From contig JAFGNM010000116.1 in NCBI GenBank assembly GCA_016927015.1, positions 1 to 38,730 of the forward strand: a stretch of DNA of 38,730 nt, in the 5' to 3' direction. Source of the DNA: Candidatus Bathyarchaeota archaeon. GTDB lineage: Archaea; Thermoproteota; Bathyarchaeia; Bathyarchaeales; Bathycorpusculaceae. Both the position numbers and the translations under genes were made by a program. Shown piece by piece: positions 4,441-37,223 of the stretch (positions are counted from its first letter, which is position 1; each line of letters starts with the position of its first letter). Under the pieces are notes generated by a model. That model searched no databases and was not told the DNA's origin. It was given only the letters and a program-made list of their open reading frames with translations.

Positions 4441-5475
4441 TTGTACATGGTGACTTGGCGTTGCACACGAAGATGCGTAGGCAACTGCCTGTACTGCAGC
4501 TATACGCCGGAACACGCAGTAGACGCTGAGGTGAACACTAAAACAGCCTACAAAATCGTTGACGAAATCTACTATTTCGGAGCACCCTGCTTCGGTATAA
4601 GCGGCGGCGAACCACTAATCCGACAAGACATCTTTGACATCATAGAATACGCCAAAAAAACTGGTTTCGGAGTAAGCCTGATAACCAGCGGGTTCGCCTT
4701 CGACGAAAAAAGATTGGATAACCTTGTGCGAAACGAAGTTTACACGGCAGTCAGCGTAGACGGCACCAGAGAATCAAACGACAAAATAAGAGGCAAAGGA
4801 AGCTACGACAAAGCCCTATACGCCGTGAAGAAGCTGTCAGAAAACGGAATCCTAGACTGCATAGTCACAACCATGACCAAATACAACATCAAAGACTCAG
4901 AGCACGTTGTCAAGCTCGCAGAAGAATACGGCGCCCGAATGGTCGTCTTTCACAACCTAGTCCCCGTGGGAAGAGCAGGATCTAACATGCCCGATTTGAC
5001 ACCCTCGCCGGAAGAGTACGAAGGGGCATTCAACAACATCTACGACCTGCAGGTTGAGTACGCGGGAAAAGTCCACGTGAACGTTTACGCGCCTTTCTAC
5101 GCCAGAATCGTCCGCCAAAGGAACCCAACTGAGTTTTGGAACTGGTTCCAAAATGGCTTTCTGGGCAAGTGCACGATCGGCGGAAACTACATCAGCGTAA
5201 CCGAGAACGGCGACTACAGGTCATGTGGTTTTAACGAGAATTACAGGCTGGGAAACGTGAAGTACCAGGGCTTGAAGGCAACGTGGGATGAGCTGCAGCG
5301 TTCTGAGTTGCACTTGAAGCTGAGAGACAAAAGCAACATCAAAGGCAAATGCGGCGTCTGCGAGTACCGTGAAATCTGCGGAGGCTGCAGGACAAGAGCC
5401 GAATACTACACGGGAGACCTGTTCGAAAGCGACCCCGCATGCGCATACATACCAAAAGTGCTCCGAGAAAAATAA
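4441..5475 (+). CDS. Radical SAM/SPASM-domain protein (copy 1)
   Basis: The radical SAM cluster motif CVGNCLYC (C-x3-C-x2-C) is near residue 12, followed by GISGGEP. The C-terminus carries an auxiliary-cluster region, CGVCEYREICGGCR, with one more Cys in DPAC. The closest relative in view is the protein at 36141-37223, nearly identical over the last 40 residues, including the ending IPKVLREK. SPASM proteins of this type include the haem-pathway enzymes AhbC/AhbD/NirJ and peptide-modifying enzymes; I cannot choose between them. Odd point: in-frame codons upstream of TTG 4441 (KKAPLYM) match the paralogue (RKGPLYI), yet no usual start codon exists between the in-frame stop at 4411 and 4441. The start is therefore uncertain and may involve a rare codon or a lost start. 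Confidence 0.85.
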   Translation: MYMVTWRCTRRCVGNCLYCSYTPEHAVDAEVNTKTAYKIVDEIYYFGAPCFGISGGEPLIRQDIFDIIEYAKKTGFGVSLITSGFAFDEKRLDNLVRNEVYTAVSVDGTRESNDKIRGKGSYDKALYAVKKLSENGILDCIVTTMTKYNIKDSEHVVKLAEEYGARMVVFHNLVPVGRAGSNMPDLTPSPEEYEGAFNNIYDLQVEYAGKVHVNVYAPFYARIVRQRNPTEFWNWFQNGFLGKCTIGGNYISVTENGDYRSCGFNENYRLGNVKYQGLKATWDELQRSELHLKLRDKSNIKGKCGVCEYREICGGCRTRAEYYTGDLFESDPACAYIPKVLREK

Positions 5476-20088: not shown

Positions 20089-20400
20089 TCAGGATAAACG
20101 GCAAAACACGCGGGGCTGTCGGCTAGCTTGGTCTAGGCTTGTAGACTTGGGCTCTATAGACCCCGGTTCAAATCCGGGCAGCCCCACCATTTCCAGTTTA
20201 TTCTCAGTTGAATTGAAGTTTCTTTGTGAATTGCAATTTGAGAATTGCATCATTAAGTGTTTTAAGTGGTTTTCAAACGTTTTACTCATATTAAAGCCTA
20301 AAGCTTTAGACTTTTCAACAAGTTCTCTGTCGAGATACAATACGACGTTGCCTTTTGTTATCATTGCATTCGCATCCGAGGGCTTGCATGAGGAATTCAT
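20089..20400 (-). pseudogene. Probable N-terminal fragment of an SSV-type integrase, int(N), overlapping tRNA-Pro
   Basis: The frame begins near 20400, or more likely at ATG 20364, reads NVVLYLDRELVEKSKALGF and NMSKTFENHLKHLM, and then runs antisense through the whole tRNA-Pro gene as VGLPGFEPGSIEPKS before stopping at 20089. The integrase of the archaeal virus SSV1 contains a closely similar PPGFEPGT stretch where its attachment site matches a tRNA. SSV-type integration splits the integrase gene and leaves a short N-terminal piece attached to the tRNA gene. The catalytic C-terminal part is not in the window. Alternatively the first 70 residues are an independent small DNA-binding protein and the tRNA part is chance readthrough. 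Confidence 0.55.
20112..20189 (+). tRNA. tRNA-Pro (anticodon UGG)
   Basis: Acceptor GGGGCTG pairs with CAGCCCC. The anticodon stem GTAGA/TCTAT encloses CTTGGGC, giving TGG (reads CCA). The T arm is CCCGG-TTCAAAT-CCGGG. ACCA is encoded at 20186-20189. The 3' half is overlapped on the opposite strand by an integrase-like frame, so this gene looks like an integration target. Confidence 0.95.
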
Positions 20401-30625: not shown

Positions 30626-30704
30626 GGGGTCGTAGTCGAGCTTGGTCCAAGATTCACGCCCGGGGCGCGTGAGAACCTGGGTTCAAATCCCAGCGGCCCC
30701 ACCA
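30626..30704 (+). tRNA. tRNA-Pro (anticodon GGG), with odd features
   Basis: Acceptor GGGGTCG pairs with CGGCCCC except for a T-G wobble at the fifth pair. The anticodon stem CACGC/GCGTG encloses CCGGGGC, giving GGG; position 33 is C, not the near-universal T. The T arm is CTGGG-TTCAAAT-CCCAG, and ACCA is encoded. The D stem is weak (G-A at the last pair). It may be functional or partly decayed. Its 3' end is duplicated at 33062-33088. Confidence 0.85.
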
Positions 30705-30706
30705 CC
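30680..30706 (+). repeat. Direct repeat (attL-like), 3' end of tRNA-Pro(GGG)
   Basis: A 27-base stretch from the T arm through CCA repeats at 33062-33088 with one mismatch (G here, A there). The two copies bracket 2.36 kb that carries the ABC exporter pair. TTGCGGGAGA occurs just inside both ends, at 30758 and 33034. Confidence 0.7.
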
Positions 30707-30883
30707 AAACCCAGAGACACCCTTTTCAGTTAAGTCGAAAGAAAAAAGGGGGAAAAGTTGCGGGAGAAAACTCCATTCTTGTCTTGATGTGACCGTGATG
30801 AACCGCTGTCAAACTGAATAAAACTACTAAGCGTGCGCTTTTTAATGTCATCCCACGATTATGGACAAGGGTAAAAGAGTTCC

Positions 30884-32041
30884 TCAGGTTTTTCCATACT
30901 TCCCGTACAATATAATTCCCAATATCAATACAACTAAACTGTAGAGCGCAACCACCAAAACGTCAAGCAATATTGAAGGACTCGTTACAGGCGCGCCTCT
31001 TAAGAAAAGCGACGTTAATGCATCCGTCACATAGTAGCCGGGCACAAATCTTCCAGCTTCTTTCGCAATTGCCGACAAACCAACCGAAACAAACGTGCCC
31101 AAAAGCATCTGTGGCATTATGAAAACAAATGCAATCCCAGTGGCAGCCCCAGAAGACTTTGCCAAAGTCGCAGCAATCAAGCCAAAACCAACGCAGCAAA
31201 GTGAAAAGATGGCCAAAATCAGGAAGGCCGAAACAAAGCTGGTTGCGTCGCCCAATGGTCGATAACCCACAAGAATGGCAACCGCGAAGACTATAGCAAC
31301 CTGAATCATGGCAGTGATCATGTTGGAAACGGTATGGCTTGCTATGAATTCGCTTGAGGAAGTCGGTGTCGTTCGTATCCTTCTGAGTAGGCCTTTCTCT
31401 CGTTCAAAAATAAATGACTGAGAAACTGTCATTATCAAAAATATGGCGAAAAAAGCGAAAAAGCCAGGCGCAAAGTAATCAAATGTAGTCAGCGTGCTAA
31501 CTTCAACTAAAGAAGGACTGCCAATGTTGACTGGCCCAGAGATTTTGGTTTGTTGGCTTCCATAGATCGATGTTGAGAGCGTTTGCTGGATGATGGGTGG
31601 AATCGCCCGAGTTGCGAACAGTGATCCGCTGTCCAAATACAACGTAACCGTCGTGTTTATCCAAAGGTTAGGATCCGTTGGCGACGCCCAATACGAATCA
31701 CAACTTGATCCAAAATCTTCAGGAATAATAAGAACCGCTTGGATTTTACCCTGAGACAAATCGCTCTGTACGGCATTGCTATCCGAATAATTCTGGACAT
31801 TTAGAATCATAGTTTCGGAGAGATTCCCAATGAGATGCCGTGACCAGCTTAATTCTGACAAATCTGTGTTCACTACACCAATCTCATACGTTGATTGGCC
31901 ACTGTCTGTGGTTCCGAACGCAAGACCAAAAGCCATGGTGGCAATTACTGGAAAGAGAATGAGCATGAAGAGTGCTCCAGGGTCTCTGATTAATAACAGG
32001 AGATTTTTCTTGGTAAGGGCTGCAACGCGTTGAAGTTTCAA
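30884..32041 (-). CDS. ABC-2 type transporter permease
   Basis: 385 residues in the usual ABC-2 layout: one TM helix near the N-terminus (LFMLILFPVIATMAFGLAF), a large extracellular domain of about 150 residues, then five TM helices from about residue 180. FEREKGLLRRIRTTPTSSSEF is the conserved cytoplasmic loop. It begins at TTG 32041, directly after the stop of the ATPase gene, so the two are translated together. Such pairs export drugs, lipids or peptides; the substrate is not readable. It lies inside the tRNA-flanked segment. Confidence 0.88.
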   Translation of the reverse strand: MKLQRVAALTKKNLLLLIRDPGALFMLILFPVIATMAFGLAFGTTDSGQSTYEIGVVNTDLSELSWSRHLIGNLSETMILNVQNYSDSNAVQSDLSQGKIQAVLIIPEDFGSSCDSYWASPTDPNLWINTTVTLYLDSGSLFATRAIPPIIQQTLSTSIYGSQQTKISGPVNIGSPSLVEVSTLTTFDYFAPGFFAFFAIFLIMTVSQSFIFEREKGLLRRIRTTPTSSSEFIASHTVSNMITAMIQVAIVFAVAILVGYRPLGDATSFVSAFLILAIFSLCCVGFGLIAATLAKSSGAATGIAFVFIMPQMLLGTFVSVGLSAIAKEAGRFVPGYYVTDALTSLFLRGAPVTSPSILLDVLVVALYSLVVLILGIILYGKYGKT

Positions 32042-32788
32042 CTATACTTCCTCCCTTATTCGTTTGCCCGTGAGCTGTAAGAAGACTTCCTCCAGATTTT
32101 TAGCCTTAAACTGTCTTTTTAGCTGCTGCGGAGTATCAAGTGAGATAAGCTTGCCATTGTCGATTATTCCAACTCTATCACAGAGTTCTTCAGCTTCTTC
32201 CATGTAGTGAGTCGTCAGTAGAACAGTCTTGTTTTGTTTTCTGAGTTCTCTGATGAAGTCCCAGACGGCTCGGCGAGACTGAGGATCCATGCCGACTGTA
32301 GGTTCGTCGAGAAAGGCGATCTCTGGATCATGCACCAACGCCATGGCGAGGTTTATTCGGCGCATCATTCCCCCGCTATACTTTCCCGCGCGTCTCTTTG
32401 CTTGGTCTCGAAGACTTAGCTTTTGCAAAAGGTCATCAACATTTCTATTCCGTTTCTCTTTGGGCATAGCATGGAGATTGGCGAATAACTCTATGTTTTC
32501 TTTGCCTGTTAAGTGAGGGTAAACAGCTGTTTCTTGTGGGGAAACTCCTATCAATTCCTTGATTTTGCCTGGCTCTTTTAGAGCATCATAGCCACCTACC
32601 TTAACTGAACCGGTTGTTGGTTTAAGCAAACCGCAAAGTATGTTTATCGTCGTTGTTTTTCCAGCGCCGTTTGGTCCAAGCAACCCGAAGAGTTCTCCCT
32701 TTTCTACGACAAGGTTGAGTCCATCAACGGCAGTGGCGTCTTCAAATTTTTTGGTTATGTTCTCAATGATTATTGCAGCCTCTTTCAA
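32042..32788 (-). CDS. ABC transporter ATP-binding protein (DrrA-like)
   Basis: 248 residues. Walker A is GPNGAGKTT (about residue 38), Q loop SPQETAVYP, signature YSGGMMRRINLA, Walker B IAFLDEPTVGMD and H loop LTTHYMEEAEEL, all intact. With the permease downstream it forms a two-gene exporter. Upstream lies about 270 bases without a gene before the second tRNA-Pro fragment, so the promoter is inside the integrated segment. Confidence 0.95.
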   Translation of the reverse strand: MKEAAIIIENITKKFEDATAVDGLNLVVEKGELFGLLGPNGAGKTTTINILCGLLKPTTGSVKVGGYDALKEPGKIKELIGVSPQETAVYPHLTGKENIELFANLHAMPKEKRNRNVDDLLQKLSLRDQAKRRAGKYSGGMMRRINLAMALVHDPEIAFLDEPTVGMDPQSRRAVWDFIRELRKQNKTVLLTTHYMEEAEELCDRVGIIDNGKLISLDTPQQLKRQFKAKNLEEVFLQLTGKRIREEV

Positions 32789-33061
32789 TGTTCACAACAC
32801 GCTTCCAATATAGAAATCAAGAATATAGTTCTGTTTATTACTTATGCTTATAGATACGGGCAAGTTTGCACGATATATGTCCGGTTTCAGGGTTTTTTCT
32901 TTGCTATAGCATGCGTTCACATCTTACTCTTTGAGATAAGGTTTATGTTCTTACAATTAATCAAGATTCAGCAAACTCTGGCTTAAGATGGTGCGGTTCA
33001 GTTTCTTAGAGTCTACGAGAAAAAAATGGAGTTTTGCGGGAGACATCTCCACTTGAGGTGT
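32789..33061. other. Upstream region of the ABC operon, right end of the tRNA-flanked segment
   Basis: AT-rich, with no coding frame of note. A hairpin GGAGA-CA-TCTCC (33039-33050) and ATGGAGTTTT (33026-33035), which is the reverse complement of a sequence at the left end (30767-30776), lie near the right boundary. Confidence 0.4.
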
Positions 33062-33088
33062 GGTTCAAATCCCAGCGACCCCACCACC
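33062..33088 (+). repeat. Direct repeat (attR-like), displaced tRNA-Pro 3' end
   Basis: Second copy of the tRNA 3' end: T loop, T stem 3' strand and acceptor strand CGACCCC with ACCA, but no 5' half. CGACCCC pairs perfectly with the GGGGTCG of the tRNA gene 2.4 kb away, so this is probably the original 3' end moved by integration. Confidence 0.7.
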
Positions 33089-33216: not shown

Positions 33217-33639
33217 CTATTTCTTTGAGAGTTTTATCTCTATTATTGAAACGTTTCTTGACCTGTTGTCGCCTTCTCTTGGGGGCATCTCTTCTGTTCC
33301 GATACCTATAGATGTGACTGTTAGATCTTTCATGAAACGGTTGCTGGTTATTTCAGCCACGTCCACAGCAGTGGTTATTGCTTTGCCTCTGGCCTTAAGC
33401 GTAATTTCAGTAATAGCACCTGAAGATAGCGCAGTCATGACCGCCATCACATAGCTCATGGGCGGTTTGTTTCCGACGAAAATAACTTCTGGGTTTTTCT
33501 CTACCGTTTTCTTGGTTGTTTTCTTTGGTTCTTCAGCGACTGTTTTAAGGGTGGATTTTTCTGAGTCCTTAGCTGCTTGTTTGGGCGTTGATTCTTCTGC
33601 CTTTTCGGCTACAGGTTTAGGGGTTGTTTCTTCCGTCAT
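33217..33639 (-). CDS. Alba-family DNA/RNA-binding protein with a basic N-terminal tail
   Basis: 140 residues. The C-terminal 90 are Alba: [16 protein letters not shown], then [24 protein letters not shown], with the usual end [11 protein letters not shown]. The first 50 residues are a low-complexity tail of Lys, Thr, Glu, Pro and Ala ([32 protein letters not shown]), absent from typical Alba proteins of about 90-100 residues. AAAGGAG lies eight bases before ATG 33639, which I prefer over GTG 33648. It packages DNA or binds RNA as a dimer; the tail could add contacts or carry modifications. Confidence 0.92.
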
Positions 33640-33911
33640 TTTTTTCACTCCTTTTTTATTGTTGATTCTAGTCTATGCAATATTCCGCGTCCAAGTAGAC
33701 ACTGAACATCAGAGTTAAACATAAACAAACAAACTAATAAACGCAACAAGCGCGCTATCGCAACCTCTTGAGTCATATCATAAAATTAATGTTACGTTCT
33801 CGCTGTTTTTCACCGTATAAAATGTAACCATGAACTATCTTACATACGGAAAAATAGCCGTGTGTGCCCACCACAATTTAACCTCGAAAGTTTTTGGCGG
33901 CAAATACCCTT

Positions 33912-36140: not shown

Positions 36141-37223
36141 CTATTTTTCACGCAAGACTTTAGGAATATAAGCGCACCTCGGGTCTGACCCGAAAACATC
36201 GCCCGTATAGAACTCGGCCGCAGTACGGCATCCACCACAGATTTCTCGGTACTCGCAAACTCCGCACTTGCCTTTCAGGTTGCTTTTGTCTCTAACTTTC
36301 GAGAAGAACTCAGAAGACTGAAGCTCATCCCAAATCGTCTTAAGCGCCTTTTCTTTGACGTTCCCGAACCTGTACAAGTCGTTGAAACTGCAAGGTATGG
36401 CGTCTCCGTTTTCTGCTATGCTCATGAACTTGCCGAAGAAGCACCTGCCCAAAAAGAAATGATTAAACCACTCGTCAAAATCTGGCAGCCCCCGCTGTTT
36501 AGCTATGCGGGCGAAGAACGGGCAGTAAACGTTGATTTCAGGCTTCCCCTTATACTTCGCGCGCAAATCGTAGAGCTTGTTCCAAGCCCACTCATACTGC
36601 TGCGGCGACGGGTCCGCCTTCAAACTGTTCTCGTCTCTGCTGTACGGAATAAAACCATGATAAATAACCCACCGCGCATTGTACTTCTCCGCCAAATCAA
36701 GCACATGAGTAAAATCCCCCTCGTTAACGTTCGTGCCAGAGCCGCCGACATTGGCAAACGTGTACACAAGACAGTTCAGCAGCCCTGCGCCTGACAGCCT
36801 CTCAATCGCGGAAACCGCTTTCGCATGTGAACCTTTCCCTCGAATCAAGTCGTTCATTGTTTCTGCGCCGTCAATGCTCACGGACACGCGCACTTCGTTC
36901 TTGACAATGTTCTCAAACGCTTCATCGTCAAGCAGGTGCCCATCCGTTATGATACTCGCGTTCAAACCAGTTTTCCTAGCGTACCCTATTATGTCGAACA
37001 GGTCTTTGCGCAACAGTGGTTCTCCACCGCTTATTCCAAGCCAGCTTGCCCCAAAATCGTACACTTGATCCACAATCCGCATGGCAGTTGCAGTGTCCAC
37101 TTCATCAGGAAACGGCGACTTACCCGCAGAAGCACAATGCGCGCAGTTGCTGTCGCACGCAAAAGTGCATCGCCAAGGCAAAATGTACAAAGGTCCTTTA
37201 CGCTTCAACGAATCAAACTCCAA
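36141..37223 (-). CDS. Radical SAM/SPASM-domain protein (copy 2)
   Basis: 360 residues. The cluster motif is CDSNCAHC (about residue 23), with GISGGEP following and an auxiliary-cluster C-terminus, CGVCEYREICGGCR ... DPRC. The last 110 residues match the protein at 4441-5475 very closely (both end IPKVLREK). The enzyme family is the SPASM branch that includes AhbC/AhbD/NirJ haem enzymes. It lies 70 bases downstream of a metallo-beta-lactamase-fold gene on the same strand and may belong to its operon. Substrate unknown. Confidence 0.88.
   Translation of the reverse strand: MEFDSLKRKGPLYILPWRCTFACDSNCAHCASAGKSPFPDEVDTATAMRIVDQVYDFGASWLGISGGEPLLRKDLFDIIGYARKTGLNASIITDGHLLDDEAFENIVKNEVRVSVSIDGAETMNDLIRGKGSHAKAVSAIERLSGAGLLNCLVYTFANVGGSGTNVNEGDFTHVLDLAEKYNARWVIYHGFIPYSRDENSLKADPSPQQYEWAWNKLYDLRAKYKGKPEINVYCPFFARIAKQRGLPDFDEWFNHFFLGRCFFGKFMSIAENGDAIPCSFNDLYRFGNVKEKALKTIWDELQSSEFFSKVRDKSNLKGKCGVCEYREICGGCRTAAEFYTGDVFGSDPRCAYIPKVLREK

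Follow-up and report, generated by a model that had tools for sequence, protein, structure and literature searches.

To understand why a copy of the 3' end of a tRNA-Pro(GGG) gene lies some 2.4 kb downstream of the gene itself, a stretch of 38,730 nt from a Candidatus Bathyarchaeota archaeon (contig JAFGNM010000116.1; genome G000), referred to here as the window, was analysed together with related genomes. Positions 30626-33088 are very probably the decayed remnant of a virus- or plasmid-like element that was inserted into tRNA-Pro(GGG) by a tyrosine integrase. The observed basis of this reading comprises the repeat itself, a conserved motif at the expected spacing from it, identical integrase-bearing layouts in relatives, and the absence of an integrase here. 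The features concerned are as follows.

30626..30704, plus strand: tRNA-Pro(GGG), the presumed integration target (ARAGORN)
30680..30706, plus strand: putative attL, the tRNA section from the T-loop to the 3' end, acceptor strand CGGCCCC (repeat family D1)
30740..30776, plus strand: imperfect second copy of the att motif, 53 bp past the tRNA (repeat and motif searches)
30884..32041, minus strand: ABC-2 type permease, possible cargo (PF12698, E 1.3e-37)
32042..32788, minus strand: ABC transporter ATPase, possible cargo (PF00005, E 2.5e-32)
33018..33052, plus strand: conserved att motif AGAAAAAAATGGAGTTTTGCGGGAGACATCTCCAC, distal element end (dispersed family, 137-copy profile, adjoins displaced tRNA ends)
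33062..33088, plus strand: putative attR, the displaced former tRNA 3' end, acceptor strand CGACCCC (repeat search; T-loop 12 nt past the motif; decayed orthologue in G002)
33217..33648, minus strand: Alba gene, flank beyond attR (PF01918; kept beside the decayed scar in G002)

The tRNA end is repeated across a segment without an integrase

The two copies, GGTTCAAATCCCAGCGGCCCCACCACC at 30680-30706 and GGTTCAAATCCCAGCGACCCCACCACC at 33062-33088, lie on the same strand with a start-to-start distance of 2382 and are identical at 26/27 positions, the lone difference being 30696 G / 33078 A. A sequence-only reading of this DNA had reported a 27-base copy of the tRNA 3' end with one base changed, and the repeat proved real, with strand and coordinates in agreement. 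A 27-mer repeat with one mismatch is not expected to arise by chance in 38.7 kb, and the match between the distal copy and its tRNA extends over all 27 nt, including 3 nt beyond the CCA. The segment thus has an intact tRNA at one end and a displaced fragment in the same orientation at the other. Displaced fragments are established as markers of island ends (Islander, PMC4383910). Such islands carry a regenerated tRNA at one end, the displaced fragment at the other and, in intact cases, a tyrosine integrase, whereas the segment in the window has no integrase, and next to the fragment the Bathyarchaeia family carries a motif conserved across the order.

The segment between the tRNA and the displaced end measures 2.36 kb. 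Its ABC permease and ATPase pair, already noticed from the sequence and now assigned to PF12698 and PF00005, is possible element cargo. The earlier observation that an integrase is missing was also borne out, since a tblastn search of the segment with 27 family integrases detected no integrase remnant (best E 0.12); nor is there integrase coding at either segment end, as an SSV-type split integrase would leave. Because no integrase lies inside, the segment is regarded as a remnant and not as an autonomous element. Of the proposed "remnant or passenger element", the remnant stands, in line with the decaying loci of G003 and G043.

A conserved motif adjoins displaced tRNA ends in Bathyarchaeia

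Directly 5' of attR lies a motif (consensus AAAAAARGGGnTTTGCGGGAGAYATCTCCA) that the sequence-only reading had missed, as it had the imperfect copy near the tRNA. With at most one mismatch, its 18-base core is present in 38/61 genomes including the window's own, which has 2 copies, and reaches a maximum of 21 per genome; the reversed core pattern, used as a control, gave 0 matches in the 61 genomes. Exact motif matches occur in 67 stretches of a one-genome-per-species collection, mostly Bathyarchaeota, and the bacterial ones are without the A-tract and about as numerous as expected by chance, a figure obtained by hand arithmetic. The motif is dispersed and restricted to Bathyarchaeia. Nearly all copies lie between ORFs, and in a profile of 137 copies the conservation reaches from about -14 to +19 relative to the core and no farther.

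A tRNA end follows the motif at 34/179 distinct sites, against 0-2 per control (25 tRNA 3' ends and 9 reverse-complemented 5' ends); ends were counted at a match of at least 17/20 nt to a reference set of 78 distinct tRNAs, so these counts are lower bounds. At 24/25 of the 3'-end sites the T-loop begins 11-12 nt from the motif, a spacing shared by the window site with its offset of 12. Motif and integrase counts per genome correlate (Spearman 0.45, p 0.0003). The motif is a putative arm-type binding site of the integrase. For most motif and tRNA-end sites on long contigs, the set checked after leaving out several sites at contig ends, the cognate tRNA is absent within 30-90 kb. The pair alone is therefore no proof of an element, and sites of this kind may reflect rearrangement, secondary integration sites or loss.

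The imperfect copy at 30740-30776 shares its adjoining arm with a site in G011 that resembles a tRNA-Glu 5' end, suggesting that more than one element may have visited the locus; with this second copy present, the history is not that of one clean insertion.

Other roles for the motif were considered and rejected. As a linker coding for part of an integrase (common frame WGRWDLNPTPSGDVSRKTPFF), it would not have its frames broken nearby or be conserved at the DNA level, third codon positions included. As a minus-strand terminator or small RNA, it has no promoter signal, folds no better than shuffled sequences and shows a weak gene orientation bias. Split-tRNA halves or a tRNA minihelix were set aside since intact tRNAs with integrases, together with exact copies, account for the fragments; a search of Rfam at the distal fragment returned nothing. 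Cas1 is absent from G000 and G010, and was rejected as the mobilizer of the motif family.

In G028, five or six motif copies follow one another in a single orientation, separated by genes (L111, G028:C43:1400-9700; L076, G028:C3); such runs look like serial insertions. Integron-like cassettes, an idea raised by such one-orientation clusters, received no further support.

Intact elements in relatives and a decay series at tRNA-Pro(GGG)

Intact elements in relatives follow the order tRNA, about 30 bp, tyrosine integrase, cargo, motif, and displaced tRNA end. In G010, about 32 bp separate tRNA-Pro(GGG) (contig C9, 197939-198017) from the end of a gene for a tyrosine integrase of 410 aa (PF00589), and this 12.1-kb element closes with the motif and an exact 25/25-nt copy of the tRNA's own CTACCCC-type end. 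The 3'-type element at tRNA-Phe of G010 (10.8 kb) has the same layout with an integrase, and that at tRNA-Pro(GGG) of G013 spans 6.2 kb with a 25/25 copy; an integrase occupies the corresponding place in G010, G013, G015 and G032. The integrase gene of these relatives is uninterrupted and ends about 30 bp from the tRNA, unlike the split gene of the SSV (suicidal) type.

Under the model drawn from these layouts, a tyrosine integrase would have inserted the element into tRNA-Pro(GGG) by a crossover at the T-loop, placed there because identity begins at this point in G010, G013 and the window. The element would have supplied the part of the tRNA from the T-loop to the 3' end as attL, pushing the host's own 3' end to the far side, where it would now be attR at 33062-33088 beside the distal motif. 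The integrase would later have been lost by deletion. The reading of the locus as a scar of integration that displaced the tRNA 3' end, proposed from the sequence, is strongly supported by the layout found intact in G010 and G013 and decaying in G003 and G043.

In a survey of 223 kb, a displaced 3' copy was found in sense orientation within 13 kb downstream at 9/25 tRNA-Pro(GGG) loci, with 0 in antisense. G003 keeps only 62 aa of the integrase beside the tRNA, and G043 has the motif and displaced copy 3.1 kb downstream with no integrase match; the window's segment, at 2.36 kb and without an integrase, belongs at the late end of the series running from G003 through G043. In the sister species G002, the orthologous tRNA (98% identity across 97 bp) and the Alba flank (81% identity) lie on either side of a decayed motif with its displaced end, CAGCGACCCATCA, indicating that the insertion happened before these two species diverged. 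Among the relatives no empty site turned up; the flanks are rearranged in G030 and G003, and G001 is incomplete.

One integrase family is found at both tRNA ends

The G010 tRNA-Pro is flanked on its other side by a related integrase of 417 aa, which stops about 27 bp short of the tRNA 5' end. Farther out, 13.5 kb upstream, a motif in inverted orientation lies against a 29-nt sequence that repeats this 5' end exactly. Mirror-image pairs of this kind, at both ends of one tRNA and each with its own integrase, are present at G010:C9:184430-210100 (Pro GGG) and G010:C4:409316-425780 (Phe), and 5'-end elements also occur in G031 (Pro) and G008 (Thr). Relatives of the integrase were found in 52/61 genomes. 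In a tree of 27 integrases, whose bootstrap values are not fully settled, the 3' and 5' modes are interleaved and the well supported branches require at least two changes; the 5'-type integrase at tRNA-Pro of G010 is sister to the 3'-type at its tRNA-Phe (96/99). Judged from sequence comparison, the family appears to insert both at tRNA 3' ends (T-loop) and, in mirror image, at 5' ends (D-loop), with at least two switches between them. In general terms, one lineage of archaeal integrases sharing a conserved att arm probably uses either tRNA end. It would have switched between them repeatedly, in some cases occupying both ends of the same tRNA, and would have left numerous att remnants scattered over Bathyarchaeia genomes.

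The viral contig IMGVR_UViG_3300035688_000062 has the integrase stop (711 in L156) and an inverted motif (772-789) about 60 bp apart, the arrangement expected of attP, and its ORFs resemble structural genes of head-tail viruses as judged by eye. The same adjacency is seen in decayed form in another viral contig (L377), and in further ones the integrase neighbours tRNA-Leu 3' ends or tRNA-Ser(GCT) 5' ends. Some described viruses of Bathyarchaeia likewise encode integrases (PMC10848311), which may or may not belong to the motif family carried by the viral contigs here; attachment sites were not found in the accessible text of that paper.

Archaeal integration is said to favour the tRNA 3' end, and pTN3-like integrases have been called unique for recombining with the 5' half (PMC8371274). 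The 5' D-loop elements of Bathyarchaeia resemble them in that respect, whereas the family as a whole acts at the T-loop on the 3' side as well as at the D-loop on the 5' side, and its tree intersperses the two modes. Integrated elements of Thaumarchaeota (PMC6563490) also target mostly tRNA 3' ends, with one 5' case, tandem occupation of one site and casposons; in the portion of the paper at hand no common distal motif is described, unlike in Bathyarchaeia, where G010 has mirror-image elements at both ends of one tRNA. In the literature covered, which included few subscription papers, neither the motif nor a single family acting at both tRNA ends was found described. The motif together with a displaced tRNA end allows element ends and decayed remnants to be found directly in fragmented Bathyarchaeia genomes, and one integrase family acting on both tRNA ends provides a natural series for how integrases change their target sub-site.

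Acceptor stem and origin of the local tRNA end

The 5' strand of the acceptor stem, GGGGTCG, is fully complementary to the distal CGACCCC and forms one U5-G68 wobble with the local CGGCCCC, as the sequence-only reading had it. The forms surveyed were GGGGTCG/CGACCCC, GGGGCCG/CGGCCCC and GGGGTAG/CTACCCC. Fully Watson-Crick stems were found in 20/23 tRNA-Pro(GGG) genes read in register (a survey that leaves out G024 and G032, called with a shifted start), and the GGGGTCG/CGGCCCC wobble occurs only in G000, G002 and G030. If the crossover fell at the T-loop, position 68 would derive from the element at the tRNA and from the host at attR.

That the element brought its own attP half to the tRNA and moved the original end to attR had been proposed from this pairing. 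The scar holds, given the relatives' layouts, and the chimera is supported in part: the wobble is confined to 3/23 genes and the distal CGACCC is common to the window and G002, and G030 speaks to the contrary. A relative with CGGCCCC and no insertion had been named as evidence against the proposal, and G030 is formally such a relative, as its tRNA-Pro(GGG) (G030:C26:15247) has the U5-G68 wobble and is followed by host-like genes with no displaced copy in about 9 kb. Either an older element lost from G030 or a later A68G mutation is possible. A local tRNA with a host 5' part and an element-derived 3' part is accordingly supported by the sequence comparisons, not proven.

A different account of the wobble, to which we give somewhat less than an even chance, contests the chimera and leaves the insertion untouched. 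The element would have carried the same end as the host (CGACCCC), the local A68G would be a later point mutation, and the distal copy would preserve the ancestral base. One transition would be enough, and the wobble is common to G000, G002 and G030, the last without a visible insertion; however, in the tRNA-Pro(GGG) loci of G013 and G015 that carry an integrase, GGGGCCG normally pairs with CGGCCCC, which makes a donor available. The locus also suggests that part of a host tRNA can be overwritten by an element, the change outlasting the element's decay.

Alternatives to insertion by a tyrosine integrase

The distal fragment might instead belong to the dispersed motif and tRNA-end family as a stray member, its place near tRNA-Pro being accidental and unrelated to any insertion into this gene. 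Sites without a nearby cognate tRNA are indeed common, CGACCCC types in G017, G024, G026 and G028 among them, yet the own genome has few copies (the 2 at ≤1 mismatch) and this one sits 2.4 kb downstream on the same strand, matches the window's own tRNA past the CCA, and has counterparts at tRNA-Pro(GGG) in eight other genomes, all of which makes a stray origin very improbable.

Least credible, and already contradicted, is a Cas1 (casposon-type) target-site duplication at the tRNA 3' end in place of tyrosine-integrase attL/attR, for even though a casposon-like element is present at the orthologous tRNA in G002, the casposon marks (Cas1, terminal inverted repeats, a ~14-bp duplication) are missing from the window segment: no Cas1 was found in the window or the whole genome, an inverted-repeat search found no terminal inverted repeats at the segment ends, the repeat is 27 bp from the T-stem and not ~14 bp at the extreme 3' end, and the displaced end in G002 lies outside the casposon.

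A casposon-like element in G002 and other observations

The casposon-like element of G002 lies at the 3' end of the orthologous tRNA-Pro(GGG) (~3435-12449 of L029, G002:C23:24500-39500). It has a divergent Cas1 (PF01867), perfect ~65-bp terminal inverted repeats, a 14-bp target-site duplication, CCCACCACGATTTC, and OLD-like and HEPN-like genes; the ORFs scanned include no family B DNA polymerase. Its relative in G060:C27 shares Cas1 (67%) and three more genes. The literature search found no paper joining Bathyarchaeia and casposon.

Elsewhere in the window, an ORF at 20089-20400 (minus strand) with a CcdA/ribbon-helix-helix-like start overlaps tRNA-Pro(TGG) (20112-20189); it runs antisense into the tRNA and ends ...LPGFEPGS..., resembling the N-part of an SSV-type integrase, and in G010 the displaced tRNA end is likewise read through by a similar ORF (G010:C9:209979-210347). 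Positions 1105-1205, upstream of a long ORF at 1262, hold a palindromic repeat of ~25 bp, TTAGTCAAGAAATCTTGACTAA, in three direct copies. Inverted radical-SAM-like paralogues are located at 4441-5475 (plus strand) and 36141-37223 (minus strand), their 3' ends being 70% complementary over 294 nt.
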